Shown here one piece after another: positions 1-42,645 of a stretch of 42,645 nucleotides of DNA (position 1 is the stretch's first letter; every line of letters begins with the position of its first letter). The stretch lies in the IMG/VR virus record IMGVR_UViG_3300013133_000014, positions 1 through 42,645 of that record; one strand, given 5' to 3'. Below the pieces are notes generated by a model, which had not been told where the DNA came from, searched no databases, and saw only the letters and a list, made by a program, of their open reading frames with translations. A program made the position numbers and the translations under genes. This DNA is from a virus.

Positions 1-2227
1 AGTCAGCAATTATAGATAATGACCCAGTTGGTGCAATTGAAAGAGTTGCAACAGATAGTGGTGCATATTTTGATGATTTGTGTAAATGCTTCCCAATCTT
101 ATCTATGATACTCAACGTTTCATCAGAGTCATACAAAACATACATGTCCATTAACATGTCACCGAAGCCCATTACACCAAGTCCTGTACGGAAAAATCTA
201 TTTTGCATCTCATAACATTTTGAAATTTCTTGAGGATATTGTGTAGATTTATTCATACCCATAAGGAAATTTGTTCCTCTTTCAACTAAATAGTCGAGTT
301 TGTCATAATCAAAATCATTATCTGTTGTAACACAATGTGCCAAGTTTATACTGCCGAGACAGCAACTTTCATAAGGAAATAACGGCACTTCACCGCAATC
401 GCGTGTACTAATACCGTTACCCAGCAGAGATTTAGTTACCGGAACTAGGTAGTCATATACTTCTTCAACCCCAGCAGGCTCAATAGATACAATAGCTTCA
501 TAAAACTCTTCGCTTTTATATATTACTGGGTTGTACTGTTCTTGCATGTATTCCCTTAAAAAAGATACATATTGTTCAAATATTAATTTGCTCCTCCCCC
601 CAATTTGCAGACGATAAGAAGGTTTGTGTGTGTCATAAAATTTATAAACGGCATCACTTGAGTGTCCTTTTCGTGTTACAGTAAATATTTTAGACCTAAT
701 ACCAAAATTAGCTAATAGTATCTGTAATTCATTTATAAACTCTTTACTCTTATTTGTAAGAGCTATAGCCATAGAATGGCCGCATTCAATATGTCCATCG
801 CAAGCATATAATCCAGTTAAATACCCCCTCGCAAACTCTAAAGAGCCTTCAAATACTTTTTTTGGTATATGTTCTTTATTAATATTTGCAAACCAGCTAA
901 TAATTTCCTTTTTAGGCGTTTTAAGTTTATAGATTAAATTACCATTTGTGTTTGTTCTTTCTTGAATTTTTAATAAAATACCAAATTTAGATTTAATTAA
1001 TTGCTGAACAGTTTCAATCATTAATTTATTATCTGGGCCTGCTACGAACCCAATAGTATCCGATATCCATCCATCACCATGAATAAATCCAAGTAATAAT
1101 CCATCCCTGTAGTCTTCATCAGTGCCCCCGCAAAAATTCATCTTGTTTTGTATTGCCACCATATCACCGATTTTTAAATCTTTCAAATCTATCCAGTCGG
1201 AATTGCCTAATGAATAATTTTTAACCCAAAAGCCATGGTCGTCTGTTGCTTTGATTGACATGCCATTTGCAAGAGTTACTTTAAAGACAGGCCTCTTACC
1301 AATACTAAATATTTTTCCTGCCTTTTCATATGAAATTGATGTATGTATAACCCTATCATCTACAAGTATTTCGTCTCCCACTTTAACTTCTTTAATGGGC
1401 ACTATACCTCTTCTGGTAGGAATTAAAGTATCACCAGTCACACATGGATTTGTTGCTCTGATTGATTCGCCAGGATGTAGTGGATTGTCTTTATTTATTC
1501 TATCAAAGAATAATAATCCAGGACAACCGTTGGCCCAAGCATAGGTTACTGCCATCCAAAAAATATCACGCGCTTTTATTGTTCTAACAACTCTTTTTTT
1601 GTCGTATCGGGATGTTAAAGGAACCTCATCATCTGTTTCAACTAATTTCATAAATTTATCTGTTACTAATATAGATAAGTTAAAATTGGTAAGTTTATCA
1701 TATCTTGTTTTAATTTGAATAAAATCTAAAATTTCAGGATGGTCATATTCAAGAACACCCATACTTGCACCGCGCCTAAAACCGCCTTGCTTTACAGCTT
1801 CGGTCGATGCATCAAATAAATTCATGAACGAAAGAACACCAGAAGCCATTCCGCCTGCTTTTAAAATTGCACCTTTTTCTCTTATGTCGGAAAAATTATA
1901 CCCGCATCCACCGCCAGCCTTAAAAATTATTGCAGATTGGAGAAGCGCTCTATAAATTCCCGGAATTGAATCTTCAACAGGAAGTACAAAACATGCTTTA
2001 TTCATATTATTATATCCAGCATTTCTTATACATGGAGAGTTAGGAAGAAAATCTAAACTTTGCATCATCTCATTATATTCTTTTTCGAGCTGTGGTATAT
2101 TTCCATTGCCTCCGGGAGTGTGCTTTGCTATCTCTTTTGCAACACGCGGAAAAATATCAACTGGCTTTTCACCATGGCTACAATATCGCTTGCTTAATAA
2201 ATCGATTGCGTTCGCTGTTAATTGCAT
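1..2227 (-). CDS. nrdJ: Adenosylcobalamin-dependent (class II) ribonucleoside reductase, intein-containing, 3' end cut by the window
   Basis: Reduces ribonucleotides to deoxyribonucleotides, presumably feeding viral DNA synthesis. ATG at 2227 follows a strong GAGGTGAT site; 742 codons are visible before the left edge. Family landmarks in the host-protein parts: LPNSPCIRNAG with C66 (redox cysteine position), GGGCGYNFSDIR at 105-116, the split active-site motif NPC|CGE, then ESCCLGSINLA, FRTGLGVMGFGD and APTGSLSIIA near the edge. NPCGE supplies the thiyl-radical cysteine and catalytic Glu. No ATP-cone is seen at the N-terminus; the C-terminal part lies outside the window. After removing the 349-aa intein, 393 residues of the enzyme are visible. 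An oddity is Cys in GGGCG, where I would expect Thr or Ser. It is the last gene in the window and has its own 221-bp upstream gap. Family assignment is firm; class II rather than class I rests on overall motif style. Confidence 0.92.
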   Translation of the reverse strand, partial: MQLTANAIDLLSKRYCSHGEKPVDIFPRVAKEIAKHTPGGNGNIPQLEKEYNEMMQSLDFLPNSPCIRNAGYNNMNKACFVLPVEDSIPGIYRALLQSAIIFKAGGGCGYNFSDIREKGAILKAGGMASGVLSFMNLFDASTEAVKQGGFRRGASMGVLEYDHPEILDFIQIKTRYDKLTNFNLSILVTDKFMKLVETDDEVPLTSRYDKKRVVRTIKARDIFWMAVTYAWANGCPGLLFFDRINKDNPLHPGESIRATNPCVTGDTLIPTRRGIVPIKEVKVGDEILVDDRVIHTSISYEKAGKIFSIGKRPVFKVTLANGMSIKATDDHGFWVKNYSLGNSDWIDLKDLKIGDMVAIQNKMNFCGGTDEDYRDGLLLGFIHGDGWISDTIGFVAGPDNKLMIETVQQLIKSKFGILLKIQERTNTNGNLIYKLKTPKKEIISWFANINKEHIPKKVFEGSLEFARGYLTGLYACDGHIECGHSMAIALTNKSKEFINELQILLANFGIRSKIFTVTRKGHSSDAVYKFYDTHKPSYRLQIGGRSKLIFEQYVSFLREYMQEQYNPVIYKSEEFYEAIVSIEPAGVEEVYDYLVPVTKSLLGNGISTRDCGEVPLFPYESCCLGSINLAHCVTTDNDFDYDKLDYLVERGTNFLMGMNKSTQYPQEISKCYEMQNRFFRTGLGVMGFGDMLMDMYVLYDSDETLSIIDKIGKHLHKSSKYAPLSVATLSIAPTGSLSIIAD
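398..1444 (-). other. Intein with LAGLIDADG homing endonuclease inside the ribonucleotide reductase
   Basis: Residues 262-610 of the reductase frame (349 aa). Block A begins at Cys262 (CVTGDTLIPTRRG), block B contains ATDDH (the TxxH splicing histidine), and two endonuclease motifs are visible: LLLGFIHGDG (D385) and RGYLTGLYACDG (D477). The C-terminal blocks read VYDYLVPVTKSLL and then ISTRD|C. The usual block F histidine is Lys, the penultimate His is Arg, and the terminal Asn is Asp. The following Cys611 is both the +1 splicing nucleophile and the catalytic cysteine of the CGE motif. Insertion at this conserved site is typical of reductase (RIR1) inteins. Whether this one still splices efficiently cannot be told from sequence. 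Confidence 0.9.
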
Positions 2228-2260
2228 AATTTTATCACCTCAAAACAGTAAGATTAACTT

Positions 2261-3911: not shown

Positions 3912-3915
3912 ATTT

Positions 3916-12650: not shown

Positions 12651-15600
12651 TTAACCACCACCCCAAGTAAACCCAGCACGCTTTGCTTCAGAAACTAATG
12701 CATCATGTACTATGCTAACTACTTCTTGTGCATCCGCTCTTTCACTAATAACAATATATGGTGCTAAAACAATACTATTACTCTGTCTAATGTCAGCTTC
12801 AGCCATACCTTTTGCAAGTGCGTCCCAAAATCCTTCACTTCCTATATTTTCTAATAAATCATCGATAACGCCTTGAAAATCTGGCAAAACTCTGTAAGCC
12901 ATTAACTGCATAAGAGCAAACATATTCGATTCAAATTGCTCTGGCAATGTAACACCATATTCTCGCATCGCTTTTGCGGATTGGATGAATGAATTAATTA
13001 GTTCAGTCATTTTAAAATATGACTGTATGCGAGCCCATTCCTCACCAAGCATTTGCCAACCTTCTGCAACGTTCTTAAAGTAGAATCCAGCTGACTCTAA
13101 TTCGGTGCTGTGTTCAACAAACGTGCTAATTGCATCGCTGAATCCACTTGCACCGCTGAGTACATCACGGAAGTCATTAGCCATTTCTTCGATAGTTTTG
13201 ACCACCTGTTCTTCTGTATCTTCAAAAAGTGTATCCCAAAAGTTTGGATTGTTTAAATTACCTATAAATCCGCTTATAATACTCATTAATCCGCCTGTTG
13301 CACCGCCAGCCATCTGCTGGATAAATGGCAAGAGTGTATTATACAGCTGACTTTGCATATCTAATATTTGTTTTTTTGTCGCATCATCAAAAGCGGACCC
13401 CATAATGTCCTCAGTAGTATAACCAGAAACATATTGTTCAGTTTCTTTTGCTATTTTACTAAGAGATTTTTCTGCCTGCACCATATATTCATATGCCAAA
13501 TTATTTGTCAATCCCGCCTCTTCATGAAACTTAATGAAGTTTCTTACTGCAGGTAGTTGTTGCTGCGCAGATATTGCGCGCTCGGTAGCACGTGTATCAT
13601 ATATAGGGATTTGCCTCTCGCCGACTTTATATTCTTGTTGCGCAGCAGTGGCAAGATTGCCAACAACATCCATTATTGTGCCAATAATTTGCAACGCCAT
13701 CCACATTTTTTGTATTTTCTTCCAATTCTCCCCAAGAGTTTCCCACTGGCCGGCTACGCCGCCGAAATAGAAGCCCGCATCGTCCAAACGAACGCCCGCG
13801 GCAACTAGTTGGTCTATAAATTCGCTAAGACGGTCAAATCCTGTTACCGCGCTAATTAAGTCGCCTGCCATATCATTAATTGTTTTTACGGCTTCTTTAA
13901 CAGTTTCTACAACTTCATCAGATTGCAAAACTGTAGTCCAAAAGTCTTTGTTGCTAAGATTGCCCTGAAGACCGGTAAATACATCAGTTATATCCGTAAC
14001 CATACCGCTCATAAAAGGCGTGATAGCTTCGCCTATTTGCACCAAGCCATTTTCAGCAGCTGTATTTAAACCAGTTGTATCAACACCCTCAATTTGTAAG
14101 TCTTTCATCGTTGAAAATACATCAATAAAAGTTTTAATCATATCAAGTGCTGCCCACTTGGCTTGAATTTCGGCCCATTTATCGCCTAATGTCTTCCACT
14201 GGCCTGCAACACCATTAAATGTAAACCCGGCTTCATCTAATGACTCACCACGTGACACCATTTTAGTTATTGCGTCACTTATTTGGGTAATATCGCCTAT
14301 TTTTGACCATGATTCGACAGCATCGGCAACTACTTGGGCATCAGCGGCCAATTGTTCTTCTGCAGTTAGAGCGACCTTTTCATTACTATCCACCATCGCA
14401 ATAATTCCATCTTCTGCTACATTTTGCAAAGCTAGCCAGTCTTTATTTTGACTCAACGCTTGGTTTATAAGGTAATTTTTAAAATCTTCTGACATGGTGC
14501 CAGCTGTTGTACCCTCCGCAGTTTTAAATAATTTTCCCAAAATGGATGTATCTTTACTTCCTTCAAACATATTAGCTACTTTTTCATATCCTTCAACTGT
14601 TAAATTTACTGTCCATTTATCCTTTGTCCATTTTACAAGTCCTAAAGGACCTTTAACACCGGTTGTTGTTTGAATAGCTTGATATTGGCTCGCACTAAGG
14701 TTCTTCCGAATTTTTTGAAATTCATCCCATGTTACATTTGTTACTGTAACCATCCCTTCGTTAATTGAATCTCCAAGCCCTGCTACAACATCATCTCTAA
14801 TTTCACCACTGCGCTTTTCAACATAATCCATCACGCCTTTTGTTGTTTCTGCAGCGGACCCCATCTTCTTTCCTGCAGTATCCCATGATGCTATTAATGC
14901 ATTACCAAATTCCTGACCAAAAATCATGAGAGTCAAAGCATCACGCATTGCTCTATCTGATTCACCCATCAACTTGCTCTGTACATCCATTATTAGGGTT
15001 AAATCACCCTCATGTATTTTTGTAATTTCTTCTGATGTATATTTATACGACTTCAATGCCATTTCAAAATCAGTTGTTCCTGTTAATTTTTCTGGGAACC
15101 ACCTGGTTGGTGATTGAATAAATCCTTGTTCACCTACATTCATATAACCAGTTTTAATAAGTGCCATCGCTTGTGATACACCAAATTCGCTTGTGATACC
15201 CGCCATTTGTTCAACTTCTCTTCTAATTGTTTCAATTACTGTCCCCTCTTTTACTAATTCAGTAACGAGCTGGCGAACTTTGCTAGGCATATCATCCAAT
15301 GCAGAACCCATATCATCAAGACTGCCCGTAAAATCTGTAGATGCAGTGGTGGCTTCCTGTGTTGCACTTGTGAGCATAATCATAGCAGCGGTCATTGCAC
15401 CAACCATCACAGCAATACCAGCAGCAGCAGCATAAGCAGATATACCAGCAGTTGCACCAGCTTCAGCAACGGCTAATTGCATGGTCGCTGCCGTCTTCGC
15501 TTGTATAAGTGTTGTTACAATAGGCAAAATTGTAGCGAGTGTTTGTAATGTTGTTGAAACAAATATTAATGCAGCACCAACTTCTCTCTGGCCTGCTGAC

Positions 15601-27400: not shown

Positions 27401-27659
27401 ATGAAAAATTATTTCCATTATATGTACCAGTAGATAAATCAGAACCAGTGGGCAGACCACTACCATCTGTTGATGTAATAACTGCTGTTACTGTGCCAGG
27501 CGACCCAAACCCACTTCTCCATGCTTTTATACTTATTCCTGTAATCGTTGTGGTTGCATCTAATCCAACATTACCTAGTGTGAATGTCTGTGCGCGCCAC
27601 TTCGTTCCATAGACATCTTTGTTATCATCATCATTAGAAGTGTAATATTCAAATAGCAC
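21411..27659 (-). CDS. Giant tail fibre B: two beta-sandwich domains plus repeat fibre (2,082 aa)
   Basis: GTG start shares its G with the stop of fibre A (TAGTG). Residues 1-165 and 170-330 are two copies of the same beta-sandwich found five times in the hub protein (AQTFTLGNVG, DGSGLPTGSDL, YALIL, YSGGN). From about 345 to 2035 the protein is built from degenerate 18-20 residue repeats of the form R-x-[FLY]-x-[ED]-x-x-x-L-x-D-x-[FLI]-x-[RK]. Five copies of a longer 134-residue unit, marked by a [FL]EDQ(L/I)YPxDERV motif, occur near its C-terminal half. The protein ends with a short non-repeat tail (TRIGSNDITFGRIG). Likely a long fibre for host attachment; the fold of the repeat is unknown to me. 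Confidence 0.8.
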   Translation of the reverse strand: MLFEYYTSNDDDNKDVYGTKWRAQTFTLGNVGLDATTTITGISIKAWRSGFGSPGTVTAVITSTDGSGLPTGSDLSTGTYNGNNFSFISPGGWYDFTMSAATLEADAKYALILKATSGSAANYVNWRDDKSSPSYSGGNMCVSTNSGTSWTSETTADAMFKIYGKGKHTEVYDSYTSNDDDGYLFDTFRKYGQSFTTSFTTRLTRVRLKLLTTSSGDPGTITATLYDTDGSGLPTGSALTSGTSMGTNLTSTAVWKAIDLTPYTLKADTKYALTLSAQNTGYLKWRGDKTLPSYSGGNQLTWFIATWSNATNVDMMFELCGDYTQNESVTLYDNISFRFSRLDINNNLSLSDTVTGMRPLNATELVELIDNIQLSKNLNYNGGETFSLDDKVVATKPAYIEIIELFDICSTNKLSSRLFSEETALSDDLTFTLNRTYRDSCAATDDEINGLNRGFQDLTTLNDTFVYSISRIIRESIALVDGRQDIITAGFNEYPTLTDTLSRTFLPKRACNESTALNDVLTTVISKNYQEATTLNDLVTAVKLVYTETLTLYDSRTNKLSCIFAEATTLSDGLIKTQTRIFGDVATLTDSVVLNLSRTLKDSFDLTDGEYGILTYWFEDYIACYSILGRKVTFSRLLSDIINVTDVKTQYEVRSLYESCTLSDDLTLYIQRAYIEQTSTSDAVIKSIRHIFNDSLTATDEEYSAPSGIFCDQLTPSDLIARNVLFTRTFSEQTSPADSLARSLRRQCIEFISLADNVARSFTKILTLTESVSLYDVKIHKINFILSDIPLLSDTYSKIWNNTKQLIESVACADVLSRKSVSTRILYENIVPTDEEYGAPAGNLYDKLTLNDLTTRTALLLRIFTEQIASYDSLIRALARQYYENVVVADNVTRLFTKVLKSDENIVLSDILSKMTLFSLFESLVLYDLFGKLLQKITTESIVLSDQLVKSVARVHGDCVVLSDGEIYKADLIFNEAHLLDDVYTKIWHTTKNLADNVGCIDVLNLKLNINRAPIESIQLSDLFLRSLAKLGLFNESISLICSAYLASAPVFAESISTYDIIVKALQKSVYELFILADTVTKSLAVPFEDGILVTDGKINVYDKWLYENVTLTDYRHIGGMIYPIELYDDFKLYYRLDVIKPGGILLFDEFGLQTVWNFARYFYEGISLDDSCIAVLHGTMRIDNSAILYDEFMRIWVTSAVFNEVCGLTDAFYTGTHRPIAFEDILTLHDYIKPIIGHVSTEAVVLTDTLVKQISYILEDQLYPLDERVAKIEYILKDYTELFGAYQHAWIHLHLFVDDLSLTDLMSILKVQLRMLPEVVLVSDIFTRNLTLLRLFTDQTTLADIFNVKFDSTRKLQDYITLTESLMRTVERPFIELTTLNDKIVRKHSRTFEDQLYPFDERVTKIEYILKEYTQLFDEYRRAWASLRIYTDVLSITDIISILKVQLIALYDVTTLYDSLSRGLTKYLTLFDSSSLSDVFSRLVRYVRTLQDSTTLNDLLAPAVSRPIVDVTTLSDILTKYTKRAFEDQIYPLDERVTQIDYILKEYTQLLDAYKHTWASLRVYVDNLSIIDVISTIKIQLITLHDVTTLYDTLSRGLIKYFTLLDSTSLSDIFDRVIRHIRILQDNITIYDTLVPAISRPIADVTTLNDVLIKYTKRTFEDQLYPVDERVSKVAYILKDYTELLDQYNRIWTHLHSLTDAVLIADSFTTLSKSFATFFETVALTDIVALKQTLLRAFDGQLTLLDVLDLVTVGIRQLYEGIVPYDELTFSLERTFKDTTALDDAMVWHWSRVFEDQIYPLDERVSKVSCILKEYVEILDNYGRVWSHGHLLVDVVTLDDVVDAILYCASTYIESIQLIDEIALRKTFTRGLMEQLTLVDMFSTSAANIHDLYDDTSLYDQMLVVKRFKRDLNDDLGVVDILSFTRALSRVYSDLIALYEELTAELVVVEENVAELFDGVTVIFGKIFTDNLAMYDNLDVIPGLLLWEIIEPTDSITRALTRLFEDVTIITTSVAPNAGYIKSFTDSFALYDAIAPFKTATQWFRIYPTFTRIGSNDITFGRIGDIVCATTRIGSNEIKYS
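21560..26630 (-). repeat. Coding tandem repeats (18-20 codons) in fibre B
   Basis: About 5 kb of diverged repeats with a period of roughly 54-60 bases. Each unit carries an Asp/Glu, a T/S/V-L-x-D core and a basic residue. Divergence between units is high, so the array is old or under diversifying selection. Confidence 0.85.
22240..23870 (-). repeat. Five-copy higher-order repeat with an exact 402-bp period
   Basis: The conserved DERV-encoding segment starts at plus-strand positions 22243, 22645, 23047, 23449 and 23851, each exactly 402 bases (134 codons) apart. The flanking units (ILK(E/D)YTxLxxxY, LYDxLxRGL, ISRPIxDVTTLxD) recur in register. Constant spacing indicates segmental duplication of a block of about seven basic units. 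Confidence 0.85.
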
Positions 27660-30600
27660 TAGCCCATCACCACCCTATATTCACCGAATTCATTCAACGT
27701 CAATGTTAATTTAGCTGCTGCCAACGGTTCGCATATGTCATATGCAGTAATATTTTCATCAAATGGTCTTGAAATAAGCCAAGCCAGCAAGTCGGATAAT
27801 GTTTGTGACTCAAGATATAATTGGGTGCCTTTTTTTGTATTGGTGTTGATATCGTATAAAGTAATAGGGTCGTCAAATGAAGTTAAGTGCAGCCAAGAGC
27901 GCGTATATATATCGCTTAACGATACGCTATCCACAAACAATTTTTGTGCATCTTTGCTGAATTTGTCACCCAAAATTATATTCTCTATATAATTCTTGTT
28001 TAAGCTCTTTAAATATGAAGAAGCATCTGAACAATCTGTGTTTTCTGCAAAGTTTCTAATAACCTGAATAATGCGGTTTACAACATCGTTTGGTGTTAAT
28101 AAATCATCATACACTCTGTTTAATGCCCATAAACGCTGGTATACATCAAGCAACTCAATCATTTCCTCTAAAGTAAGGTAATAATCAGATATGCGCTCAT
28201 CTGCTAATATTACTGAATCCTTCAATAGCTTCATAAACTGCAAAAATCGACCATCCGTAATTGTAACAACATCGTTATATATTCTATTCAGCAAACGAGC
28301 CAATTTATCTTCTAACAGTATTTGTTCCTCTTCAATGCGTGCAAATATCCATATCCGTGTTGCTGTATCTGTTAGTATTACAGATTCTGGCAAGTTGCGC
28401 GTAATATTAAATATTCTTGCAAATAAGTCATTAATATTGGTTATTTCATTCAATGTGCGGACGAAAGTAACTATCCGACCTATACTATCATTAAGAGTTG
28501 TATTTTCGGTATAGCTTCGTGTGAATTGCTTTAACCAACTCGCAACATCTGTGAGTGCTGTGTCATCCGTATAAAGTTTTGTTAGCGCCCACAACCTCGC
28601 AAACATGTCGTTTAATAATAATATTTCTGATTGCAGCAAAACTAACTTTCCAGATGTTGTAAATATATCAGTTAATGGGATATTTTCGCCATACTCGCGT
28701 CTGAAAATCCATTTTTTGTTTATTAAATCAATTAGCTCATTATAATCGCCAAGTATATAAGTTAGCGCGCCGTATTCACCATCAATAAGTGCTACTTGCT
28801 CTATTAAAGTGCGTGATAGCGTTCTTGACATTAAATCAGGTAAAGTAATGATTTCGGTATATACACGCAAGAATATGTACGTAAATATATCAGTTAGAGC
28901 GGCATTTTCATATAATATTCTGCTTACACTTTTAATAAACGAGTCAGTTAATGATGTGCTATCATAATAAATCTTAAAAGATGCAAAAAGTTTGCTAAAA
29001 ACATCATTTAGTGCGATTAATTCATAAAATCCGCGTATATTCGTTATTAACCTATTAAATGCATCATTTATAGTTATATTCTCATTTAAACCGCGCGAAA
29101 TTGCATTTAAACGCGCAAAATCATCAGAAAGCAATATATTATCTGTAAATCCTTTAATAAATGCTTTAAACGCAATTAAAATATCATTTAAAACGATGTT
29201 TTCAGTATATAACCGCGAAAATACCCACATTTTATTTATAATATCGCCCAAAATTGTGGTTTCGCCACCCTCAAACATTAATTTTCCTGATGTTGCGAGT
29301 GTATCATTTAGAGTTATAGTATCCGCAACAATTCTATTTAAGACCCAAGAACGGCTAAATAAATCATACAATCCAAGTGGTTCCGCAATTTGGATAATTA
29401 AACCTTCATATTCGCCATCATATAACGTCACCGTATCAGATAACGGTCTTTGTATTGTTTTTATAAATGCATCACTTAGTGTTAAGGAATTAAATAAAAC
29501 GCGATTAACATTCCTTACAAACATATCATAAGTGGTTGTTGCTTCAAATAATATCCTTGTTTCAATCTTTTGCATTGCGTCATACGTCGTTATTACTTCT
29601 TGAATTGAACGTAACGCTGTTGATATTCTATTGATTACATCAACCAACACTACGTTTTCAGTAAATAACCTCGCGCCCGCAACAGTGAGGGTATCACCAA
29701 ATGTCATACTATCATAATACGTTCGTATAAATGCAGGCAATCTCGTGTAACTATCAGAAAGCGTTATTTGGTCTGTAAATACAACTACCGGTAATTTATA
29801 TTCACCATCTGTTAACGTTGTTTGGTCCTGCAGTGTTCTGGTTATACTTCTTACCATCGCGTCATTAAACACAATTGTTTCACCGAACGGACGTTGCAAA
29901 ATCCATGTTAAAATATCATACGTAGTGAAGGTATCATATATCGAACGTTGTAATTGTTTAATAAACGTGTCGGACGAGGTAACACTATCAGTATATGCCC
30001 TACTCAATATAACAGACCGTATTAAACTATCGTATAATACAACGCTTTCATCAAGCCGCTTTGCACCCTTTGAAACATAATCCATTTGGTCGTATAAAAC
30101 TGATAAATCTATAAACAAATGCAAGTGTGTCCAGACCCGCACAAATAAATCAGCCGCAGAAATTTGGTCGGACAAACTTCTAACAAAATTAATAACTCTG
30201 CTACAAACATCCCAACCCGTAATTATGTCCGTAAAACTTCTAGTAAATAACTTTGATAAAATGATATTATCATATGTCGTTATGAAATCATTATACGTTC
30301 TGTTAAGAGGCCAAACACGGCTAAGCAAATCAATCAGGTTAAATGCTTCCTCCAACGTTAGATAATAATTGGTAATTTGTTCGTCAGTAAGAGTAACTGA
30401 TTCTTTTCTCACAACTACCATTTGTTTTGTTAAACCATCTGTAGTGCTCAACGACTCTGCAAATATTTTATTAACTACTAAAACTAAAATATCAACAGCA
30501 GATAAACTCTCCGTGTAAATGCGCGAGTATTGCCAAACACGACCAAATAAATCAGAAGTTGTTAAACTATTCTCATAGCTCCGCGTAAACAACCATTGCT

Positions 30601-33600
30601 TAAATATATTATCATACAACGACGCCCCTTCAACATTAAACCTAACAAACATCTTTTGTAAAGACATATTGTCTGTTAGGGATAAACTATCAGAATATAA
30701 TCGACTCGAGGTCCAAATGCGCTGCAATGTATCTGGAAGTGTAACATTATCCTGATATAAACGTGCGGATTGCAGCAAACGGCCAAAATTATCATTTAAT
30801 GCAACCACTTCCGCTAAACTTCGGATAAGCAACTTCAGTGAGACTAACGAGTCACTAAGCGTTAAACTATCAATACATGAACGTATAAACTGCTTAACCG
30901 CAACAACTACATCCACTAATGTTGTTGTTTCATTCAAATATCGATTGAAAGGAATGCTGCGCTGAAGCGCATCGTAAAGAGTGGTATTATCTGTTAACAA
31001 TCGTACAAACAATTTTTGGGCGGCAATTATATCAGCAAGAGATAGATTATTCGTAAATATGCGCGACAAAGCCCACAATCTACTATATGAATCGAGGAGT
31101 TCAACACCCTCCTCCATTGTTGCGTAGAAGGCATGCATTTCCTCATCATATATTGTTACTGCATCTCTAAATGTTCTTAATAATATCTTTGACTGAATAT
31201 CAGTGAGAGTGGTTGTTTCTAGTTTTGTTTGTGCTGTTTGTTTCATAAATACATCAGATAAAGTTGCAAGTTCTGTAAATATTCTACTGATTGATGCAAT
31301 TCGGCTGAATGTATCTGTTATTATAATTTGTTCAGCAAATAATCGGATATAATTTGCTAATCTAGTGTATGTATCCGCAAGAGTTACCGTTTCTGAAATT
31401 TGCCGCGTAAATATTTTTAAATATACTACCTGGTCATATAAAGCCACGCTTTCTGTATGTGAGCGTTTAAATAACGCGCTTCTGCTAAACGAATCAGCTA
31501 GGGTTGTATTATCCACAAATATTCTCGATACTACCCAGATACGCTGTAAAACATCTGCTGTTGTAGCGGTATCAATCAAAATAACAGATTTTAACAAAGT
31601 TCGTACGAAACTATCGGATAGTGTTGTTGTTTCTGTAAATATTTTTGTAAAAATTTTTAATATATTAAATCCATCGGTTAATGGTATTGTTTCAGTAAGA
31701 GAACGGGCAAACAATTTTGATGAAATGACAGTATCATATAATGTGGTTGTATCTGTGAATAACCTAGTTATTTGAAATATTCTGCTGATGGTGTCCGTTG
31801 TTGTTGTACTTTCTGTGAGCAATCTCGCAAATATTTTTGATGCAACTAGTTGGTCAGTAAGAGATAGATTATCTTGATATAGTTTTGCAGAAATCCAAAT
31901 TTTGGTAAATAAATCAGTTAAAGTTGGGTAGTCTTCTAGAGTTTGATAATATGTATGAATTTCATCTTCATATAAAATGATATTTTCATTAAAATTTCTC
32001 ACTAATGTTTTTGTTTGTGCATCCGACAATGATACAGCTTCAAAATACTGTCTCGCAAAAACTTTGCCAAATGCATCATTTAAACTTATATTGTCAAGGA
32101 AAATTCTATTAAACCTGATAACTCTAGCAAGCAAATCTGCTAATGTAGCAAGGTCTGTTAATAAACGTGTAAATTGCTTTATCACTACAAATGAATCATT
32201 TAATGTGGTTGTATCTGTTAATAACCTGACAAATAGTTTTAAAATAGTAGAAGCATCTGTTAGTGTTGCGGTATCAGTTAATTGGCGCCGTGCCATAAAA
32301 GTTCTTGCATAACTATCCGTTAACGCTGTTTGTTCTGGTAAAAGACGAACAGCTGAAAATTGTCTCGCTATCAAATCAGAAGGTGTAATTATTTCAATGA
32401 CAGCACGCGTTAGCACCCAAGTAAATGAATCGCTTAATGTAGTGGTATCATAACAATTCTGAATTTTCATCCCAGGAGTGTATACGTTGCTCTCTGCATC
32501 TGTCAATGAGATATTTTCAGTGAAGAGTCTTGTGAGTACAAAAATTAGGTCATCGTATAAAGTCGTTGTGTCAGTGTATATGCGCGAATATGCAGGAACT
32601 TTCGTTACACCATCAGTAAGGGATAAATTGTCAAACAGCGGGCGGGATAGCCCGTTAGCTTCGTCGTCTGTTAATGTTGTACTATCAAAATACGGCCTAG
32701 ACAATTTGTTAACTTCATCGTCGTATAGGCTGCATGATTCATAATAGGGGCGGGATAATTTATTAGTTTCATCATCATTTGTTGCTAATTCTTCAGTTCG
32801 TGTTGTTGCAAGTGCGGCAGATGATTTGTATGCAAAAACCATATCTCTATATGCAGGCATTACGGTCGCAGCTACTGTGGAGGCTTGCATATGCAATGTG
32901 TGTGTGTGTGCACCAGCAGCAATTTGAGAAAAACCGGCCGTGCCATAACGGGTAGTGGTGGCACCATCATTTTTACATGCTGCATTTACAGTATGCGTAT
33001 GACCGGCACCACCTGTCGATTCATCGCCGGAAGAAAATATTAATCGATGAAAAGGGTCATCACCAAACTCAGACAAACTTGTCCAACCTGAGGGCGGCTC
33101 CCCGTCAAAACCAGCAACAATACCAAGTGGTATTGTTGCATCTTCTTTCGCAATATAGAACTTTCGCGCACAATAGTTAGGTGACCACACGCCTCCATTT
33201 GAAGCACCATTACCTGTGTGTGTGTGTGATGCCGCAGCTATTGATACCGCACCTACTGTTGTAGTACCGGTACCTGTAACACCGCCTGTCGTACCAACAA
33301 TATTGTGGGAGTGACTTGATGCACCACCTAAATCTGCCGCACCACCTGTCCCTCTCAAATAACAATCAACAACTTTGTAAGCAGAAAAACCATCAGGAAT
33401 AATTGTTGTATTAAACCATGTTATCGCGCCTTGTGGAAATCTATCTGGTGTTAACGGGCTATTACTATAATAAATTACTTGAACCGTCTGGTAAGGTGGC
33501 AACGCGGAAACAGTCGTGCTGAGAGTTATCGACCCCTGTTTGTGGGTATGTTGTGTGGACGCAACAGTATAAGCAGTTCCTGATTTTTGATATGCTACAC

Positions 33601-33784
33601 TTGCTACACTACATGAATAACCAGCAGTAGAGTGTGTGTGTTCGTTTGAGCCACCGATACCAAGTACATCTGTTGAAGCTGCACCACGAATAAATTTATC
33701 ATTATAATTTGAATCAACAGCCCAGCCATCAGGTGTTTCTCCTGCAATAGATGGGTAAAAGAAATATAGCTTGGTTGCAGCCAT
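27659..33784 (-). CDS. Giant tail fibre A: tail-collar-like tip domain plus repeat fibre (2,041 aa)
   Basis: I use the ATG at 33784 (MAATKLYFFYPSIAGETPDGW); an in-frame TTG lies 9 bases upstream. The first 320 residues resemble phage tail-collar/tip regions: PDGWAVDS, DKFIRGAAS and six HxH motifs (EHTH, QHTH, HSH, SHTH, GHTH, AHTH) spread from about 50 to 300. Such histidine pairs coordinate metal in T4-type fibre tips. From about 330 to 2010 it consists of 18-20 residue repeats of the same kind as fibre B (e.g. RLLTDTTTLNDSFVVIKQFT, then RLLTDLATLADLLARVIRFN). Variant units with DE(x)2-5YYxTLEE occur four times at irregular spacing. It ends by sharing one base with fibre B. Confidence 0.8.
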   Translation of the reverse strand: MAATKLYFFYPSIAGETPDGWAVDSNYNDKFIRGAASTDVLGIGGSNEHTHSTAGYSCSVASVAYQKSGTAYTVASTQHTHKQGSITLSTTVSALPPYQTVQVIYYSNSPLTPDRFPQGAITWFNTTIIPDGFSAYKVVDCYLRGTGGAADLGGASSHSHNIVGTTGGVTGTGTTTVGAVSIAAASHTHTGNGASNGGVWSPNYCARKFYIAKEDATIPLGIVAGFDGEPPSGWTSLSEFGDDPFHRLIFSSGDESTGGAGHTHTVNAACKNDGATTTRYGTAGFSQIAAGAHTHTLHMQASTVAATVMPAYRDMVFAYKSSAALATTRTEELATNDDETNKLSRPYYESCSLYDDEVNKLSRPYFDSTTLTDDEANGLSRPLFDNLSLTDGVTKVPAYSRIYTDTTTLYDDLIFVLTRLFTENISLTDAESNVYTPGMKIQNCYDTTTLSDSFTWVLTRAVIEIITPSDLIARQFSAVRLLPEQTALTDSYARTFMARRQLTDTATLTDASTILKLFVRLLTDTTTLNDSFVVIKQFTRLLTDLATLADLLARVIRFNRIFLDNISLNDAFGKVFARQYFEAVSLSDAQTKTLVRNFNENIILYEDEIHTYYQTLEDYPTLTDLFTKIWISAKLYQDNLSLTDQLVASKIFARLLTESTTTTDTISRIFQITRLFTDTTTLYDTVISSKLFARSLTETIPLTDGFNILKIFTKIFTETTTLSDSFVRTLLKSVILIDTATTADVLQRIWVVSRIFVDNTTLADSFSRSALFKRSHTESVALYDQVVYLKIFTRQISETVTLADTYTRLANYIRLFAEQIIITDTFSRIASISRIFTELATLSDVFMKQTAQTKLETTTLTDIQSKILLRTFRDAVTIYDEEMHAFYATMEEGVELLDSYSRLWALSRIFTNNLSLADIIAAQKLFVRLLTDNTTLYDALQRSIPFNRYLNETTTLVDVVVAVKQFIRSCIDSLTLSDSLVSLKLLIRSLAEVVALNDNFGRLLQSARLYQDNVTLPDTLQRIWTSSRLYSDSLSLTDNMSLQKMFVRFNVEGASLYDNIFKQWLFTRSYENSLTTSDLFGRVWQYSRIYTESLSAVDILVLVVNKIFAESLSTTDGLTKQMVVVRKESVTLTDEQITNYYLTLEEAFNLIDLLSRVWPLNRTYNDFITTYDNIILSKLFTRSFTDIITGWDVCSRVINFVRSLSDQISAADLFVRVWTHLHLFIDLSVLYDQMDYVSKGAKRLDESVVLYDSLIRSVILSRAYTDSVTSSDTFIKQLQRSIYDTFTTYDILTWILQRPFGETIVFNDAMVRSITRTLQDQTTLTDGEYKLPVVVFTDQITLSDSYTRLPAFIRTYYDSMTFGDTLTVAGARLFTENVVLVDVINRISTALRSIQEVITTYDAMQKIETRILFEATTTYDMFVRNVNRVLFNSLTLSDAFIKTIQRPLSDTVTLYDGEYEGLIIQIAEPLGLYDLFSRSWVLNRIVADTITLNDTLATSGKLMFEGGETTILGDIINKMWVFSRLYTENIVLNDILIAFKAFIKGFTDNILLSDDFARLNAISRGLNENITINDAFNRLITNIRGFYELIALNDVFSKLFASFKIYYDSTSLTDSFIKSVSRILYENAALTDIFTYIFLRVYTEIITLPDLMSRTLSRTLIEQVALIDGEYGALTYILGDYNELIDLINKKWIFRREYGENIPLTDIFTTSGKLVLLQSEILLLNDMFARLWALTKLYTDDTALTDVASWLKQFTRSYTENTTLNDSIGRIVTFVRTLNEITNINDLFARIFNITRNLPESVILTDTATRIWIFARIEEEQILLEDKLARLLNRIYNDVVTITDGRFLQFMKLLKDSVILADERISDYYLTLEEMIELLDVYQRLWALNRVYDDLLTPNDVVNRIIQVIRNFAENTDCSDASSYLKSLNKNYIENIILGDKFSKDAQKLFVDSVSLSDIYTRSWLHLTSFDDPITLYDINTNTKKGTQLYLESQTLSDLLAWLISRPFDENITAYDICEPLAAAKLTLTLNEFGEYRVVMG
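27760..32800 (-). repeat. Coding tandem repeats (18-20 codons) in fibre A
   Basis: About 5 kb of the same degenerate repeat family as in fibre B, implying that the two fibre genes grew from one ancestor by unit amplification and gene duplication. No unit-perfect copies are seen, and there is no exact higher-order period like that of fibre B. Confidence 0.85.
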
Positions 33785-33803
33785 CCTTACCAATACCCCA
33801 CGT

Positions 33804-35554: not shown

Positions 35555-36364
35555 CTAAATACCTGTGAGAACACGACAAGCGCTAGTATTTACGAACGAT
35601 GGTTCAATAAATTTAGCTAGTGCATAACCTTTGAAGAATCGCGGGTCGTCTTGACCATACTCGATTGCGAGTTCTGGCCCCTCACCAAGAATTATAGCTG
35701 GTGCGGCTGGGTCAATAACATATGCTTTGTTTGCTGTTACATTTTGGTCTATGATTATTTTCAAACCACAAACTGTTGGTAATTTTCCATCAACTACCCA
35801 TGTTCCTCTCTCAAGGAAACCAGCAAGCAAATCGTTGGTAATCAAACTAACATACTGAGTATGCTTCATAGCAAGATATTTAGCTTCGTAACCCGCATCA
35901 AATATCGGGTCAGCACCTGCCATAATATCATCAGTTGGATTGTTTGAACCAGTTGCCCACGCGGAACCAGACTTGGCTGTACTATCCGCTTCTATCTCGG
36001 TTGCAATTTGACTGTTCTCCATTCTCGCTAGTTCTTTGGCTGCAGACTTCACTTCGAGGCCCAACACATCGATATCTGATTTGAGTCCTGCTTCAGCGGA
36101 TATAGCTAAATGCACAACGTTCTTCCATAAGTCAAAAGACGTTTTGGAATATGCTTGCGATTTGATATCTGCTTCAACTAATTCTGGAACCTTTTCAGAA
36201 CCAGTATAATCAGTTGCAGTTCTTACATCAGCAACGAGGTGAGGCATTGCGATGACTTGACAAAGCTCTCTGAGTCTATATTGAACGCGGGCTAATCCCA
36301 ATACTTCCTGTATTACGACTTGCGCTTTTACATTCGCAATATCGCCTACCATCATCATTGGCAT
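35555..36364 (-). CDS. Major capsid protein, HK97-type (269 aa)
   Basis: The shell protein. Residues about 50-130 hold an extended arm and spine helix (KVPELVEADIKSQAYSKTSF, KSAAKELARMENSQIATEI), then a P-domain, a GLKIIIDQNVTANKAYVIDP strand pair and a C-terminal FFKGYALAKFIEPSFVNTSACRVLTGI, typical of HK97-fold capsid proteins. It is compact for the family. Starts MPMMMVGD with a GGGGTGGT site, right after the cement gene and downstream of scaffold and protease, giving the standard order. No long N-terminal delta domain is present; the scaffold function appears to be carried by the separate coiled-coil protein. Confidence 0.85.
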   Translation of the reverse strand: MPMMMVGDIANVKAQVVIQEVLGLARVQYRLRELCQVIAMPHLVADVRTATDYTGSEKVPELVEADIKSQAYSKTSFDLWKNVVHLAISAEAGLKSDIDVLGLEVKSAAKELARMENSQIATEIEADSTAKSGSAWATGSNNPTDDIMAGADPIFDAGYEAKYLAMKHTQYVSLITNDLLAGFLERGTWVVDGKLPTVCGLKIIIDQNVTANKAYVIDPAAPAIILGEGPELAIEYGQDDPRFFKGYALAKFIEPSFVNTSACRVLTGI

Positions 36365-37333: not shown

Positions 37334-38527
37334 TTATGCACCAATCAAAAAGAAATTACGAATATGCTGAATTAATAAATCTTCATGCTCAAAGTCATGC
37401 TCCCATATAACTAATGTTTCATATCCCTGTTCTGCAAAGTATCGGGCTCGATATTCGTATGTTAGTTCCTGTTTTATTTCACGCTCTGGAAAATGTATAG
37501 GACATGCATGCCAATAGCATCCAAAAACTTCAATTACCTTTTTTTGCTCCGGAAAAACAAAATCTGGTATTAATTTTCCAACTTGCTTTTTAATATAAAA
37601 ATACTCGGGAAACTCTTCATATAAAACGTAACTAATTATATCTTCCAGAACACTCTCGGGCCTGTATAAATGCCCACGCTCATACCATTCTGCACGGCAG
37701 TTAGTACATAATGATATGTTTTGACTATCATCCCCATCATCCTTGATGCCATATACATGACACGCCTTATATTGCCCACAAACTTCACACAATTCTTTTG
37801 GCTGAAGATGCTTTTTAATCAGCGCTTTATTATGCAAATGATAAATTTTTTTTCGTGTTTGTTCTACTACCGCTTTTGGAAAAGGCTTATCTAGTTTATC
37901 AAAACACTCATCACAAAGAAAGAAAGTATTATCTTTCCTCGGATATCTACCAACAAAATATATTTTTACACCTATTTTGCCGCACTGCATACATGATGTT
38001 TTTGCTACATCTACTTCGTTATATTGTTTATCAAATAATGGCAAGAGATGAAGTCGCCTTTCTTTTGCAAAAATCTTTTTTAATATTTCATTTAAATGTT
38101 TTTCCCGCGCGGCATCTACGATAGCACACACTTCTTCATATGATAATAATGATTTTTTACCGAATTTAATATGCAATTTTTTAATTCCGTCTGGCGTTAA
38201 ATGTTTACCATTCTTAAATTCTGCTTTTAGGGACTGCGACCACCCGTCATCCATCCCCAAAATATCACATAATGTTAAACAATTATCAATACCAACAACT
38301 TGCAAAGAGTTAAAATATTTATTCTCCATCAATGTTGAATTAATACCGTATTTGAAAAGTTGATTCTTTATTTCGTTTAAAATTTCTAAATCACCATCTA
38401 TCTCATAATACGGCATCGGCCGTATCCCGTATTTTACATCATTTCTCTTAGAAAATGTAACACCAGCAAAACCCTCGCTGCCTAAATCTAATGTCCAAGA
38501 AGCAGGCTTCTTTTCCTTTTCAGCCAT
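37334..38527 (-). CDS. Free-standing composite homing endonuclease: LAGLIDADG-like, two zinc fingers, Vsr-like nuclease (397 aa)
   Basis: ATG at 38527 lies one base after the protease stop (TGA-A-ATG); an in-frame TTG further upstream is less likely. Residues 10-90: a degenerate LAGLIDADG-type domain (WTLDLGSEGFAGV, then PMPYYEIDGD and LQVVGIDNC). Residues 179-208 and 247-277: two CxxC...CxxC zinc modules. Residues 319-385: a Vsr-like PD-(D/E)xK-type nuclease, with PDFVFPEQKKVIEVFGCYWH, CPIHF and YETLVIWEHD, resembling the EDxHD homing nucleases (I-Bth0305I group). It splits the usual protease-scaffold gene order, as expected for a selfish insertion. It would cut a related genome lacking the gene. 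Target site unknown. Confidence 0.8.
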   Translation of the reverse strand: MAEKEKKPASWTLDLGSEGFAGVTFSKRNDVKYGIRPMPYYEIDGDLEILNEIKNQLFKYGINSTLMENKYFNSLQVVGIDNCLTLCDILGMDDGWSQSLKAEFKNGKHLTPDGIKKLHIKFGKKSLLSYEEVCAIVDAAREKHLNEILKKIFAKERRLHLLPLFDKQYNEVDVAKTSCMQCGKIGVKIYFVGRYPRKDNTFFLCDECFDKLDKPFPKAVVEQTRKKIYHLHNKALIKKHLQPKELCEVCGQYKACHVYGIKDDGDDSQNISLCTNCRAEWYERGHLYRPESVLEDIISYVLYEEFPEYFYIKKQVGKLIPDFVFPEQKKVIEVFGCYWHACPIHFPEREIKQELTYEYRARYFAEQGYETLVIWEHDFEHEDLLIQHIRNFFLIGA

Positions 38528-38528
38528 T

Positions 38529-40148
38529 TCATTCACAATTTGTAGCGCCAATATAACACACTTTGCAAGCTGGATTCTTGCAAACTGTTAAACGCGTGTA
38601 TCTTTTTATACCTGTAACAACACGCCTAACAGGGTCCGCAGAAACTTTTGCGTCAATAGACAACCCCTTATACTCGCCATTTTTAATTTTCTCCATCGTT
38701 TCATAATCATGAACAATAAAATCGACATTTACATCAGGTCCTTTTACCTCTTTTTTAAGTATCACACCAGCTACTTTGCTTGTATCATGCTCAACATCAA
38801 TAATCATATTGTCGAATTCATTAAGCGGCGATTTTTCAATAACCTCAGGTGGCCAGTAAAATCCGTTCCACACACCAAAGGATAATGCTCTACCGTGAAC
38901 TTTTAATCCATCTGGTGTTTCTTCCCAAGCGCGTATTTCACCAGAAAGGAGGATATCAGAATCGAGCGGGTTTTGTTCACTTAATTGTGTTGTTTCTTTT
39001 AAAGCATGCCAAACGCGCGAAATATCGCTCGTGAGAGACCATCTACCTTCAATTTTACTACCAAAAAATTCAACACGCTTTAACCATGCACCATCTGCCT
39101 GTTGTGCATCTTCATATATTGCAACTTTACCCTTATCAATTTGTTGAATGCTGCATTCCATATTCTTTGACGGGTTTCCTGGATTATTAGGTGCTATTGT
39201 TTCTAATTTTTCACCACGCAACCAAAATTCCTCTGAATACGGTTCTCGTTGAATAACACGCATTTCTGTCTCGGAAAGTGGGTCTTTTTCTAGAACGAAA
39301 TGTTCTTTTCCGTCTATAAATAAATCCCAATGTCGGTATTGCCCATCCTGCCCCCACCAGTGTTTAATAAGTGTAAAATCAGCCATCTGATGTTCCTCAG
39401 CAATGCGGTCAAACGTATCTCGGTCCGCTAATGTATCTACTTCCATATCGATTTTTGATAACCCAATAAAGGTGCCCCCATCAAACGTATCTAATATACG
39501 ATATACGCGATTTCCAAATGATTCACGGACTCTGTATTGGCCAATTCCAGCGCTTTTTGCTGCTTTTTCTAATTCAGACCGTGCATGTGATATTGCAGCG
39601 TCTTTATTAGTATCAGAACAAATCGGTTTAATTTGATTAACACGCGCAAGCGCGTTTCTAAGATGCGGTAAGTCTATTTTTCCGCCTGCATCCTTATATG
39701 GTAAATGTCGCGCATTTTTATCCTCAGTTGTTTTTCCGTAGCAAGGCTCTACATAGGCAAATGATGAATTTGGTAAGTCATTAATAAAAGCACGTGTCCA
39801 GTGTGCCAATTGCTCGTCTTGTTCTTCCTGTTTCGCATCTACTGGTACTATTGGTTTTTCTTCTTTTTGTTCTACCACTATGCCTAACTCACGTGCCAGC
39901 GCCATAATGTCAGGCATCCACCCTGCATCCGGCTTTTCATACAAAAATTGAATTTTTAATGTTTGGTCTTTTGTAATTCCATTAATCTTAACATCAATAA
40001 TATCCCCCACATTTAATTTGGCGGTGTTGCTATAATCTGCTGTTACATACCCGCTTTGGCAATCAGGACATCTAAATCCAATAACATAAGCGTTATTTTC
40101 TTTTACTTCCATGACTTTTGCTTTTGCGGCTACATATTTTTCTTCCAT
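38529..40148 (-). CDS. Multidomain prohead maturation protease (539 aa)
   Basis: Starts at ATG 40148 with a GGAGGA site. Four parts can be seen. Residues 1-70: OB-like beta region with a C27xxC30 pair. 115-200: a domain with LPNSSFAYVEP, ARHLPYKDAGGKIDLPHLRNALARVNQ and AAISHARSELEKAAK. 255-370: FTLIKHWWG...YRHWDLFIDG...HFVLEKDP, resembling the phosphoesterase-type fold with an HWDL motif found beside some ligases (tentative). 400-520: an HK97/assemblin-type serine protease, with DVEHD (H454) and YKGLSID (S497) as likely catalytic pair. The end has four cysteines (C523, C528, C531, C538). Position between portal and scaffold/capsid fits. It is far longer than a minimal prohead protease (about 200 aa). 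Confidence 0.78.
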   Translation of the reverse strand: MEEKYVAAKAKVMEVKENNAYVIGFRCPDCQSGYVTADYSNTAKLNVGDIIDVKINGITKDQTLKIQFLYEKPDAGWMPDIMALARELGIVVEQKEEKPIVPVDAKQEEQDEQLAHWTRAFINDLPNSSFAYVEPCYGKTTEDKNARHLPYKDAGGKIDLPHLRNALARVNQIKPICSDTNKDAAISHARSELEKAAKSAGIGQYRVRESFGNRVYRILDTFDGGTFIGLSKIDMEVDTLADRDTFDRIAEEHQMADFTLIKHWWGQDGQYRHWDLFIDGKEHFVLEKDPLSETEMRVIQREPYSEEFWLRGEKLETIAPNNPGNPSKNMECSIQQIDKGKVAIYEDAQQADGAWLKRVEFFGSKIEGRWSLTSDISRVWHALKETTQLSEQNPLDSDILLSGEIRAWEETPDGLKVHGRALSFGVWNGFYWPPEVIEKSPLNEFDNMIIDVEHDTSKVAGVILKKEVKGPDVNVDFIVHDYETMEKIKNGEYKGLSIDAKVSADPVRRVVTGIKRYTRLTVCKNPACKVCYIGATNCE

Positions 40149-40180: not shown

Positions 40181-41551
40181 TTATACCTTTTCCTCCGGTT
40201 TTTCATCCGGTACATCTTTTGTTTTATCAATAACCCTATCAAGCTCCCAACCGAGCCGTCTGAAAAATTCTTCTGCTGATACAACACCAGCCTCGAACGC
40301 TCTAACAAGAGCGGTTATTAAATCCGACTCTGGGTCGATAATTGGTCTCCATTCATGGCGTATACGAATTTTATCGTCATACCCCAACGCTTTAACTATT
40401 GGGTCATACCATTGCTTTTCAAGCTGTCGTTTAAAATAAATTTGCTCTCCTGCAACAGTTGATTCATAAAAAGAACGGATGCTATACTCCAATGTTGCGC
40501 GTGCTATCGTTTTTTCTCGACTCAGCAATGCTTTCGGGATTCCATAATTTCCAATTATTTCTTCGTCTTGTTTTTCAATAGCACGAATAAGATTATTCAA
40601 GTCAGGGTTGTATTGAATAACTTTAGGTGCAACTTGCATATTCGTTACAACAACTGCGCCCGGTTTTAATTCTGCTTTTAGTTCATTAAACAACGTCCCT
40701 TTCTCGTTAGGTGTCAATCCGCGCGTTTCAGCCTGATAAATAACAATCGGCGCCCACAAGCTACGGGAAGCATATAATAAGTCTCTCTCTAAATTCTTTT
40801 TTATGCGAATATTGCGGGCAACAGACCGACATGATGAAACGCCCATATAAGAGGATGTAGTTGCTTCGAATGTGTCAAGTGAAAAATATAATAATCGCTC
40901 TTTTGGTATAAAATTGTTCGAAGTTAATGCATATGAATACGTGATACCTGTTATTTCGCCTGTTTTTTCATCCACCCTTGGTGTCATATACGCGCTGTAT
41001 AACGGCATAAGTCCTGTTATTTGACCATTACTCGTAATCATAGTCCATCCACAATTACCATAGAGTTGACGTTTTATTACTGAAAGAAGAAGAACGTTAT
41101 CCATATTTACCGTACGATTTAAATCATCAACTTTTTGTTTTACTTTTTGATATTCTGGTTTGTTTGGGTCATCCTTCGGGTCTAAACATTTAACAGTCGT
41201 TTCAAATCCTGCATGTGTTGTAAAATTGCCTATTAAGTTGATACATTTACGCAAAACAGCAGTTGACTCAAAATAATTATACCATTGTGTCGTAGGGCCG
41301 TAACCTTGTTTTAAAGCGTTTTCAATCGAAGTACCGCTATAAACATTGCCAGCAGAAACAAGCTGAACTCTCTGTTCACGCTTTCCTGTAGTTGCATTTA
41401 CATCAATAATTGTTTCAAAACGTGGTGCGGGCGATAAATCAACTTCTTTTTCAAGTTCTTGACCTTGTACTACTTTAATCCATGGTTTGTCAATAACTTT
41501 TGGTTTTAATTTCACCGCTTTTTTTAACTTCTTATAATATTTCGTAATCAT
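40181..41551 (-). CDS. Portal protein (456 aa)
   Basis: Forms the dodecameric DNA gate of the head. Family features: STAVLRKCINLIGNFTTHAGFE near the N-terminus, RLLYFSLDTFEATTSSYMGVSSCRSV, and LLSREKTIARATLEYSIRSFYESTV near the C-terminus, a typical portal crown/clip pattern, then VRAFEAGVVSAEEFFRRLGWE. I take the ATG at 41551 (SD GAGGGAG) over an ATG 15 bases upstream; the gene overlaps the terminase end by 20 bases. Order terminase-portal-protease is standard for tailed viruses. Confidence 0.9.
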   Translation of the reverse strand: MITKYYKKLKKAVKLKPKVIDKPWIKVVQGQELEKEVDLSPAPRFETIIDVNATTGKREQRVQLVSAGNVYSGTSIENALKQGYGPTTQWYNYFESTAVLRKCINLIGNFTTHAGFETTVKCLDPKDDPNKPEYQKVKQKVDDLNRTVNMDNVLLLSVIKRQLYGNCGWTMITSNGQITGLMPLYSAYMTPRVDEKTGEITGITYSYALTSNNFIPKERLLYFSLDTFEATTSSYMGVSSCRSVARNIRIKKNLERDLLYASRSLWAPIVIYQAETRGLTPNEKGTLFNELKAELKPGAVVVTNMQVAPKVIQYNPDLNNLIRAIEKQDEEIIGNYGIPKALLSREKTIARATLEYSIRSFYESTVAGEQIYFKRQLEKQWYDPIVKALGYDDKIRIRHEWRPIIDPESDLITALVRAFEAGVVSAEEFFRRLGWELDRVIDKTKDVPDEKPEEKV

Positions 41552-42645
41552 GAAACTCCCTCTCATCTATAGGGTCGATACGTGGTAAAGGTTCAATACG
41601 TTTGTGGTATATGCCTTCCGCGGGGCGCCACAGCTCGGGTTTTTGTATATTCCCGCCAACACACTCCCAAACCGCATTTGCTAATGCATCAGCGATATCT
41701 TTTGACCCTGTACGTGGGTGGTCAATGCGGATTCCTCGTATTAATTCTAATGATTTGAGCTCATCTATTAATTTCTCATTTCCCGGTATTTTAATCTTGC
41801 CTGTATATATACGTTCTTTCAAACAATCATATTCTTGCTTCTTTACTATATTTTGTTTAACATAAATACCTGCTTGTGAAACCGCTTGTATTGTTTCAGG
41901 AAATTGCCATGTATCAACAACAAAAGTGCGGAGTGGATATCTATTTGCAACATCAATTATAAAATTTTTGACCTCCTCCGCATTTATTTCCGTTTCCTCC
42001 TGCTCAAACCTAAACGCAAAATCTGTAACAACAACCTCCCCCTCTAAATGAACGAGAGCCAAACCGAATGCATCATTTTTTACAGCCGGGTCTCCAGCGA
42101 GAAAATAAAAATTATTTGGCTTTGGTAATGCATGTGGCATAAGTTGATTATTTTCAATTAGAGTAGGAAGATTTGCGTCAATACATATATCAATTTTTTC
42201 CGGACTACGAAAATATACCTCAATCGATGCAGATGGTTTTGCGCCGAAATCACGCCAAAACGCTTCCGGGTTTAATCTCCGCTCTGGTTCAAGCATTTCA
42301 CGAGTAATACTAGGATTCATTTCCCATGTTGGCAGATGATAACACAAAAATTGTTTTAAGCGCTTACCTTGTTTATACAGTCGCATTTGAAAATCATCCA
42401 TGAATATAGGAGAAGACACAGAAAGTACTTTTCCTTCATCGCCAAATGTCTTAACAGCACGAGAAACTGTAAAATAAACAGCATCGCCAGAAAATTTTCC
42501 TTGGTTATCTTTAAACCGCGCTGTTTCATCCATCACCACACAATTATGAACACGTATATTATTTGCTGAAAAAATATGCGATGGGTCAACTTGAATATCA
42601 TACACTGCACCTGCATTAATTCGTTTTGTGTATTTAACGCGAATA
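41532..42645 (-). CDS. terL: Terminase large subunit, C-terminal part plus end of an intein; 5' part outside the window
   Basis: Motor and nuclease that packages DNA into the prohead. The frame is open to the right edge (no start inside the window is real; an in-frame GTG at 42605 lies inside the intein). After the intein end (N at 42545-42543) the protein resumes C-VVMDETARF, the Walker B strand with catalytic DE, then LSVSSPIF (ATPase coupling motif), and a nuclease half with LAGDPAVKND, FVVDTWQFPE and TGSKDIADALANAV, whose aspartates form the RNase H-like metal site. 336 residues of the mature protein are visible. The ATP-binding Walker A part and the intein body lie beyond the edge. Confidence 0.93.
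   Translation of the reverse strand, partial: IRVKYTKRINAGAVYDIQVDPSHIFSANNIRVHNCVVMDETARFKDNQGKFSGDAVYFTVSRAVKTFGDEGKVLSVSSPIFMDDFQMRLYKQGKRLKQFLCYHLPTWEMNPSITREMLEPERRLNPEAFWRDFGAKPSASIEVYFRSPEKIDICIDANLPTLIENNQLMPHALPKPNNFYFLAGDPAVKNDAFGLALVHLEGEVVVTDFAFRFEQEETEINAEEVKNFIIDVANRYPLRTFVVDTWQFPETIQAVSQAGIYVKQNIVKKQEYDCLKERIYTGKIKIPGNEKLIDELKSLELIRGIRIDHPRTGSKDIADALANAVWECVGGNIQKPELWRPAEGIYHKRIEPLPRIDPIDEREFHDYEIL
42543..42645 (-). other. C-terminal end of an intein in the terminase large subunit
   Basis: The last 34 residues visible end with a block F segment (AVYDIQVDPSHIF) and block G IRVHN|C: canonical penultimate His, terminal Asn and +1 Cys. The insertion point is the first residue before the Walker B VVMDE strand. 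The N-terminal part of the intein and any endonuclease domain lie outside the window. Confidence 0.88.

Follow-up and report, generated by a model that had tools for sequence, protein, structure and literature searches.

The window analyzed here is a 42,645-nt stretch of DNA that represents the entire IMG/VR record IMGVR_UViG_3300013133_000014. The record is a fragment, cut on the left within a ribonucleotide reductase gene and on the right within a terminase gene. Judged by its predicted terminase, portal, major head protein, tape measure and tail proteins, the window is a tailed dsDNA virus (Caudoviricetes). The following features were assigned.

1..2230, minus strand: ribonucleotide reductase large subunit, truncated by the window's left edge, containing an intein (Pfam Ribonuc_red_lgC 2e-69)
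within 1..2230, minus strand: intein of the ribonucleotide reductase with a LAGLIDADG endonuclease domain (Intein_splicing 2e-10, LAGLIDADG_3 2e-20)
12651..17231, minus strand: tape-measure protein (Pfam PhageMin_Tail 4.5e-28); 0 GATC, 8.5 expected
21411..33793, minus strand: a pair of very long, repeat-rich proteins (2082 and 2044 aa; open reading frames); 0 GATC, 36 expected jointly
35555..36364, minus strand: major capsid protein (PHROG major head protein 2e-11); 0 GATC, 4.1 expected
37334..38551, minus strand: Vsr/HNH endonuclease-like gene (PHROG endonuclease 1.7e-6)
40181..41566, minus strand: portal protein (Pfam Phage_portal 8.8e-10, slightly below the curated cut-off); GATC-free
41532..42605, minus strand: C-terminal part of the terminase large subunit, at the window edge (tblastn to phage TerL genes; PHROG terminase)

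The 2082- and 2044-aa proteins, encoded by adjacent genes, carry a degenerate repeat (e.g., ...TLTDSF.RL...) and are perhaps fibres. Read by eye, the first residues of the terminase resemble an intein terminus. The gene seems to contain an intein of which the final portion lies at the window's right edge (positions 42540-42645). The major capsid protein served as the basis of the family tree described below.

A first-pass annotation of the sequence had noted that the tetranucleotide GATC appears absent from the whole window, where a hundred or more occurrences would be expected, and exact counting confirmed both statements. GATC occurs 0 times in 42,645 nt and, being palindromic, is missing from either strand. 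The expectation for the whole window was 106.1 under a second-order Markov model and 144.7 under independent bases. For the coding part, we performed 300 synonymous-codon shuffles of the predicted genes, which preserve every protein and the codon usage. The shuffles yielded 111.1 ± 7.9 GATC with a minimum of 90, compared with 0 observed (z = −14). The remaining 15 palindromic tetramers reached 0.70-1.27 of the Markov expectation and 0.61-1.61 of the codon-shuffle expectation, so that GATC alone was lost; CTAG was mildly reduced (0.75 by Markov, 0.61 by codon shuffle). Words one mismatch away from GATC reached 0.71-1.64 of expectation, indicating that the exact word is the target. None of the 5-mers and 6-mers with more than 12 expected occurrences fell under a quarter of expectation. 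A longer recognition site was ruled out because every GATC is absent, which places the target at the 4-mer itself. Rusinov et al. (2018; PMC6286503) termed a ratio <0.1 'site elimination', and with a ratio <0.1, an expectation of at least 15 and the site alone affected, GATC in the window resembles an eliminated site in these respects.

Each gene large enough to be informative contained zero GATC. The ribonucleotide reductase gene lacked the word against 5.1 expected, with about 3.1 of these falling in the intein, for which approximately 1% of shuffles reach 0. The Vsr/HNH-like gene has counterparts of 51-63% identity in three relatives (G001-G003), with gene order kept; as these relatives are GATC-free and carry the gene in place, it is not a recent invader. 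These two observations bear on the earlier proposal that the homing elements have lived in one host range long enough to lose the site. The intein, GATC-free at its small expectation, tests the proposal only weakly.

GATC is avoided through synonymous codons. Asp preceding C was encoded by GAC in all 83 cases, whereas elsewhere 672 GAT and 188 GAC codons were used (78% GAT). Likewise, Ile following G was never encoded by ATC (0 of 100), a codon used 107 times elsewhere, and none of 16 Ser residues following -GA used TCN. This pattern is a signature of selection acting on the DNA word itself, and not of amino-acid or base composition.

We next placed the loss in the context of the virus family. 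The capsid tree located the window in the second of its clades, a supported one (95/90) composed of viral contigs only. G001, G002 and G003 contain 0 GATC in 9.2, 20.9 and 17.0 kb (expected 16, ~39 and 37), follow the same Asp codon rule, and share about 60% identity (about 58-64%) with the window in the terminase, portal and capsid proteins (58-62% for the terminase and 56-64% for the portal). Synonymous sites are presumably saturated at this divergence, which suggests that the GATC-free state is actively kept. Two contigs on branches separate from that of the window are nearly GATC-free, namely L037 (G264; 1 of 81 expected) and L043 (2 of 98), the latter branching beside L040, whose ratio is 0.41. 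Other members of the window's clade have ratios of 0.37-0.73; the median for the sister clade is 0.89. A scan with the portal profile found no additional members of the GATC-free group. Along one contig, G005 (L020-L022), the ratio varies from 0.51 through 0.34 to 0.08, perhaps owing to recombination or ongoing loss.

Several other features were observed among the relatives. L048 (IMGVR_UViG_3300033150_000898) has 0 GCGC against 19 expected, with a GATC ratio of 0.25; another site has thus been eliminated within the family. In the Bathyarchaeota-borne relatives L026, L032, L033 and L036, it is GTAC that is strongly depleted (L033, for instance, has 1 against 11 expected), so the sister clade may avoid a further site. 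The GATC-free relatives G002 and G003 carry arrays of 22 and 20 tRNA genes (L016:10792-14402 and L018:12420-15297) that span most amino acids, some of them matching Bathyarchaeial sequences at ≤84% over 68 bases. Sulfotransferase genes adjoin the terminase region in GATC-free relatives (L016:9516-10250 and L019:1878-2558).

If GATC is under attack, self-methylation should permit a virus to retain the word. Four relatives encode a D12 (Dam-superfamily) methyltransferase, and their GATC ratios are 1.04, 1.07, 1.10 and 1.31. Among the 16 palindromes, GATC alone separated relatives with D12 from those without it (sister clade p = 0.001, uncorrected), in a contrast that covers about three independent lineages and incomplete contigs. 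Relatives with a D12 methylase retain GATC, in line with the GATC/Dam dichotomy. In the genome G023, a provirus-like locus closely related to one of the D12-encoding contigs has the D12 gene ~6 kb from the capsid gene. The viral D12 proteins belong to the same superfamily as DpnM and Dam but score under the TIGR00571 cut-off. They do not carry the NGLxR...FNVPFG stretch common to Bathyarchaeal Dam-like proteins, a stretch that resembles E. coli Dam. These putative enzymes may modify GATC, a specificity we treat as unproven because the target-recognition stretch differs.

To identify the host, we searched the capsid profile against 84,980 bacterial and archaeal species and obtained 12 loci, all named Bathyarchaeota. 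These loci cluster in the sister clade together with other viral contigs, and their GATC content is near normal. The host of the window is probably an archaeon of or near Bathyarchaeia, an assignment that is indirect because the Bathyarchaeota loci lie in the sister clade and the window's own clade holds viral contigs only. Searches of ~250 genomes of the class with three 20-kb queries yielded only short imperfect DNA matches or matches to tRNA genes; the short matches showed no CRISPR repeats where inspected, and no convincing spacer match was found. A capsid-profile search of 398 genomes from the phylum likewise detected none that carried a member of the window's clade. Given this absence, the clade may be lytic; Rusinov et al. 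(PMC6286503) describe the avoidance of sites as a trait more typical of non-temperate phages.

The DpnII family and D12 methylases both occur in the Bathyarchaeal class, but DpnII-type endonucleases were found in just 2 of 251 genomes, one of them grouped with a Dam-type methylase and another methylase-like gene in an operon-like arrangement. D12 methylases above the family cut-off were found in 58 of the 251 genomes (about a fifth). Of three host D12 genes inspected, two share a neighbourhood of M42-type peptidase and DedA-like genes (by eye), and none has an evident adjoining nuclease, so that they look like orphan Dam genes. GATC is thus probably present in both methylated and unmethylated form in the host class, and a nuclease of either type could be behind the loss. 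The GATC ratio in chromosome regions sampled from the class (L138, L140-L144) is 0.56-0.95. Phosphorothioation at GATC was rejected as a candidate, with DndE present in only 3 of 251 genomes.

Taken together, these data make it very probable that the lineage purged GATC by selection, with hosts that repeatedly carry a GATC-attacking defence. Such a defence could be a DpnII/MboI/Sau3AI-like enzyme cutting unmethylated GATC or an Mrr/DpnI-like enzyme cutting methylated GATC, and in either case a nuclease would be the selective agent. Support for a GATC-targeted defence comes from the exact, codon-level and clade-wide nature of the loss, together with its absence in the relatives encoding D12. 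Against it stand the rarity of DpnII in the candidate class and the lack of a host match for the window's clade. The core of the first-pass annotation's reading, long selection by a GATC-attacking system, is supported in that the loss is exact, synonymous, present in all informative genes, common to relatives of ~60% identity and not seen where D12 is encoded; the proposed cutter may target GATC in either methylation state. One form of the same explanation, in which a methyl-directed Mrr- or DpnI-like nuclease acts in hosts with an orphan Dam and loss of GATC avoids the mark, appears rather unlikely to us. It is favored by the occurrence in Bathyarchaeia of Dam-type D12 genes that have no nuclease next to them and by the Mrr of Haloferax volcanii, which attacks dam-methylated GATC (PMC7230728). 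However, viral loci in Dam-bearing genomes (L025, L028, L029 and L035) keep near-expected GATC (0.73-1.03), indicating that Dam alone is not the agent. Moreover, keeping GATC would be suicidal for the relatives with their own D12 gene if this gene methylates the word and the host cuts it in methylated form.

Purging of GATC by a host defence also has to be weighed against causes within the viruses themselves. DpdA places 7-deazaguanine bases in phage DNA and protects it from restriction enzymes (PMC6884629). In a rival reading, this modification, and not a separate nuclease for GATC, would account for the loss. Near the terminase region, G001 and G002, both GATC-free, encode a DpdA-like transglycosylase bearing ParB-type domains; the corresponding region of the window would fall past its right end. 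Fusions of this kind are located at L016:14755-16200, L019:2-1378 and L098:1233-2825, carry HTH_ParB and in one case also ParB_N, and occur in contigs that are GATC-free or nearly so. The nearly GATC-free G264 encodes a similar DpdA along with FolE2, QueC and a radical-SAM QueE-like protein, and preQ0-synthesis genes are present in the partly depleted G005 and G267. Beyond the family, HVTV-1, which has deazaguanine DNA, and Salmonella phage 7-11, which encodes DpdA, have 0 GATC in 50 kb. On the other hand, the deazaguanine-DNA phages 9g (0.86) and CAjan (1.04) retain GATC, which makes a causal link improbable; HVTV-1 fits the general haloviral loss of GATC; L043 has no deazaguanine pathway gene in 28 kb; and phylogeny confounds the association, as all cases lie in one clade. 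We therefore regard a modification-driven loss as very unlikely. The same holds for a mechanistic coupling in which a ParB-fused DpdA would leave GATC as the sole exposed or harmful context, the word being lost wherever the pathway was acquired. Purging and deazaguanine genes are more likely parallel layers against restriction. It is scarcely credible that the virus encodes its own GATC-cutting nuclease to destroy host DNA and must itself lack the word. The clade does have candidate nucleases, including the Vsr/HNH-like protein (37334-38551), an SNase-like protein in G002 and a PD-(D/E)XK protein in G264, but none of its endonuclease-domain proteins looks like a restriction enzyme for GATC, enzymes of the SNase type lack sequence specificity, and the PD-(D/E)XK match is to the general PDDEXK_1 family. 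An artefact, whether from a library cut with a GATC enzyme or from misread modified bases, is a general possibility only and has a negligible chance of being correct: sample 3300028920 yielded GATC-free L002 as well as L052 with 214 GATC in 61 kb, the loss proceeds through synonymous codons and not misread protein changes, and three further contigs from two samples agree.

Both complete GATC loss and the alternative of purging the word or encoding a Dam methylase are already published for archaeal viruses, namely those of haloarchaea. In haloarchaeal tailed viruses, GATC is frequent with a Dam methylase and missing without one (Liu et al. 2021, PMC8651126). The present family resembles them in comprising tailed, probably archaeal viruses with a GATC/Dam dichotomy, some carrying deazaguanine pathway genes. 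It differs in being non-halophilic and from sediment, in having an uncultured host and graded intermediates, and in that its D12 specificity is putative, whereas that of the phiCh1-type methylase for GATC is known (PMC8651126). Elimination has also been described for GATC and CTAG in HF1-group haloviruses (PMC7230728) and for GATC in SH1, PH1 and HHIV-2 (PMC3622292). As in those viruses, where the loss was attributed to host defences, GATC is fully absent over a whole genome or long fragment; unlike in the HF1 group, GATC alone is lost in the window and CTAG is mildly reduced. Under-representation of GATC was found in 46 of 46 phages whose hosts encode corresponding Type IIM enzymes (PMC6286503). 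The window shares with those cases the near-total loss of one palindromic site, but there host and enzyme were known, whereas the host of the window is assigned indirectly. Among viruses of Bathyarchaeia, the head-tailed Fuxiviridae and Kunpengviridae, some of which carry stand-alone DNA methyltransferases, were reported in a paper that does not mention GATC (PMC10848311). Compared by description, they are tailed dsDNA viruses like the window, linked to Bathyarchaeia, whereas the window's own link is indirect.

Our analysis extends complete GATC elimination, documented for viruses of haloarchaea, to a clade of uncultured sediment viruses. It adds a second, probably archaeal, virus family, in which the loss is graded, contrasts with methylase carriage and co-occurs with genes for deazaguanine modification. 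Within this family, the series from zero through near zero and partial to normal GATC content lets the restriction explanation be tested. Finally, the finding predicts that GATC-directed defence would be widespread in a host lineage that is not yet cultivable.
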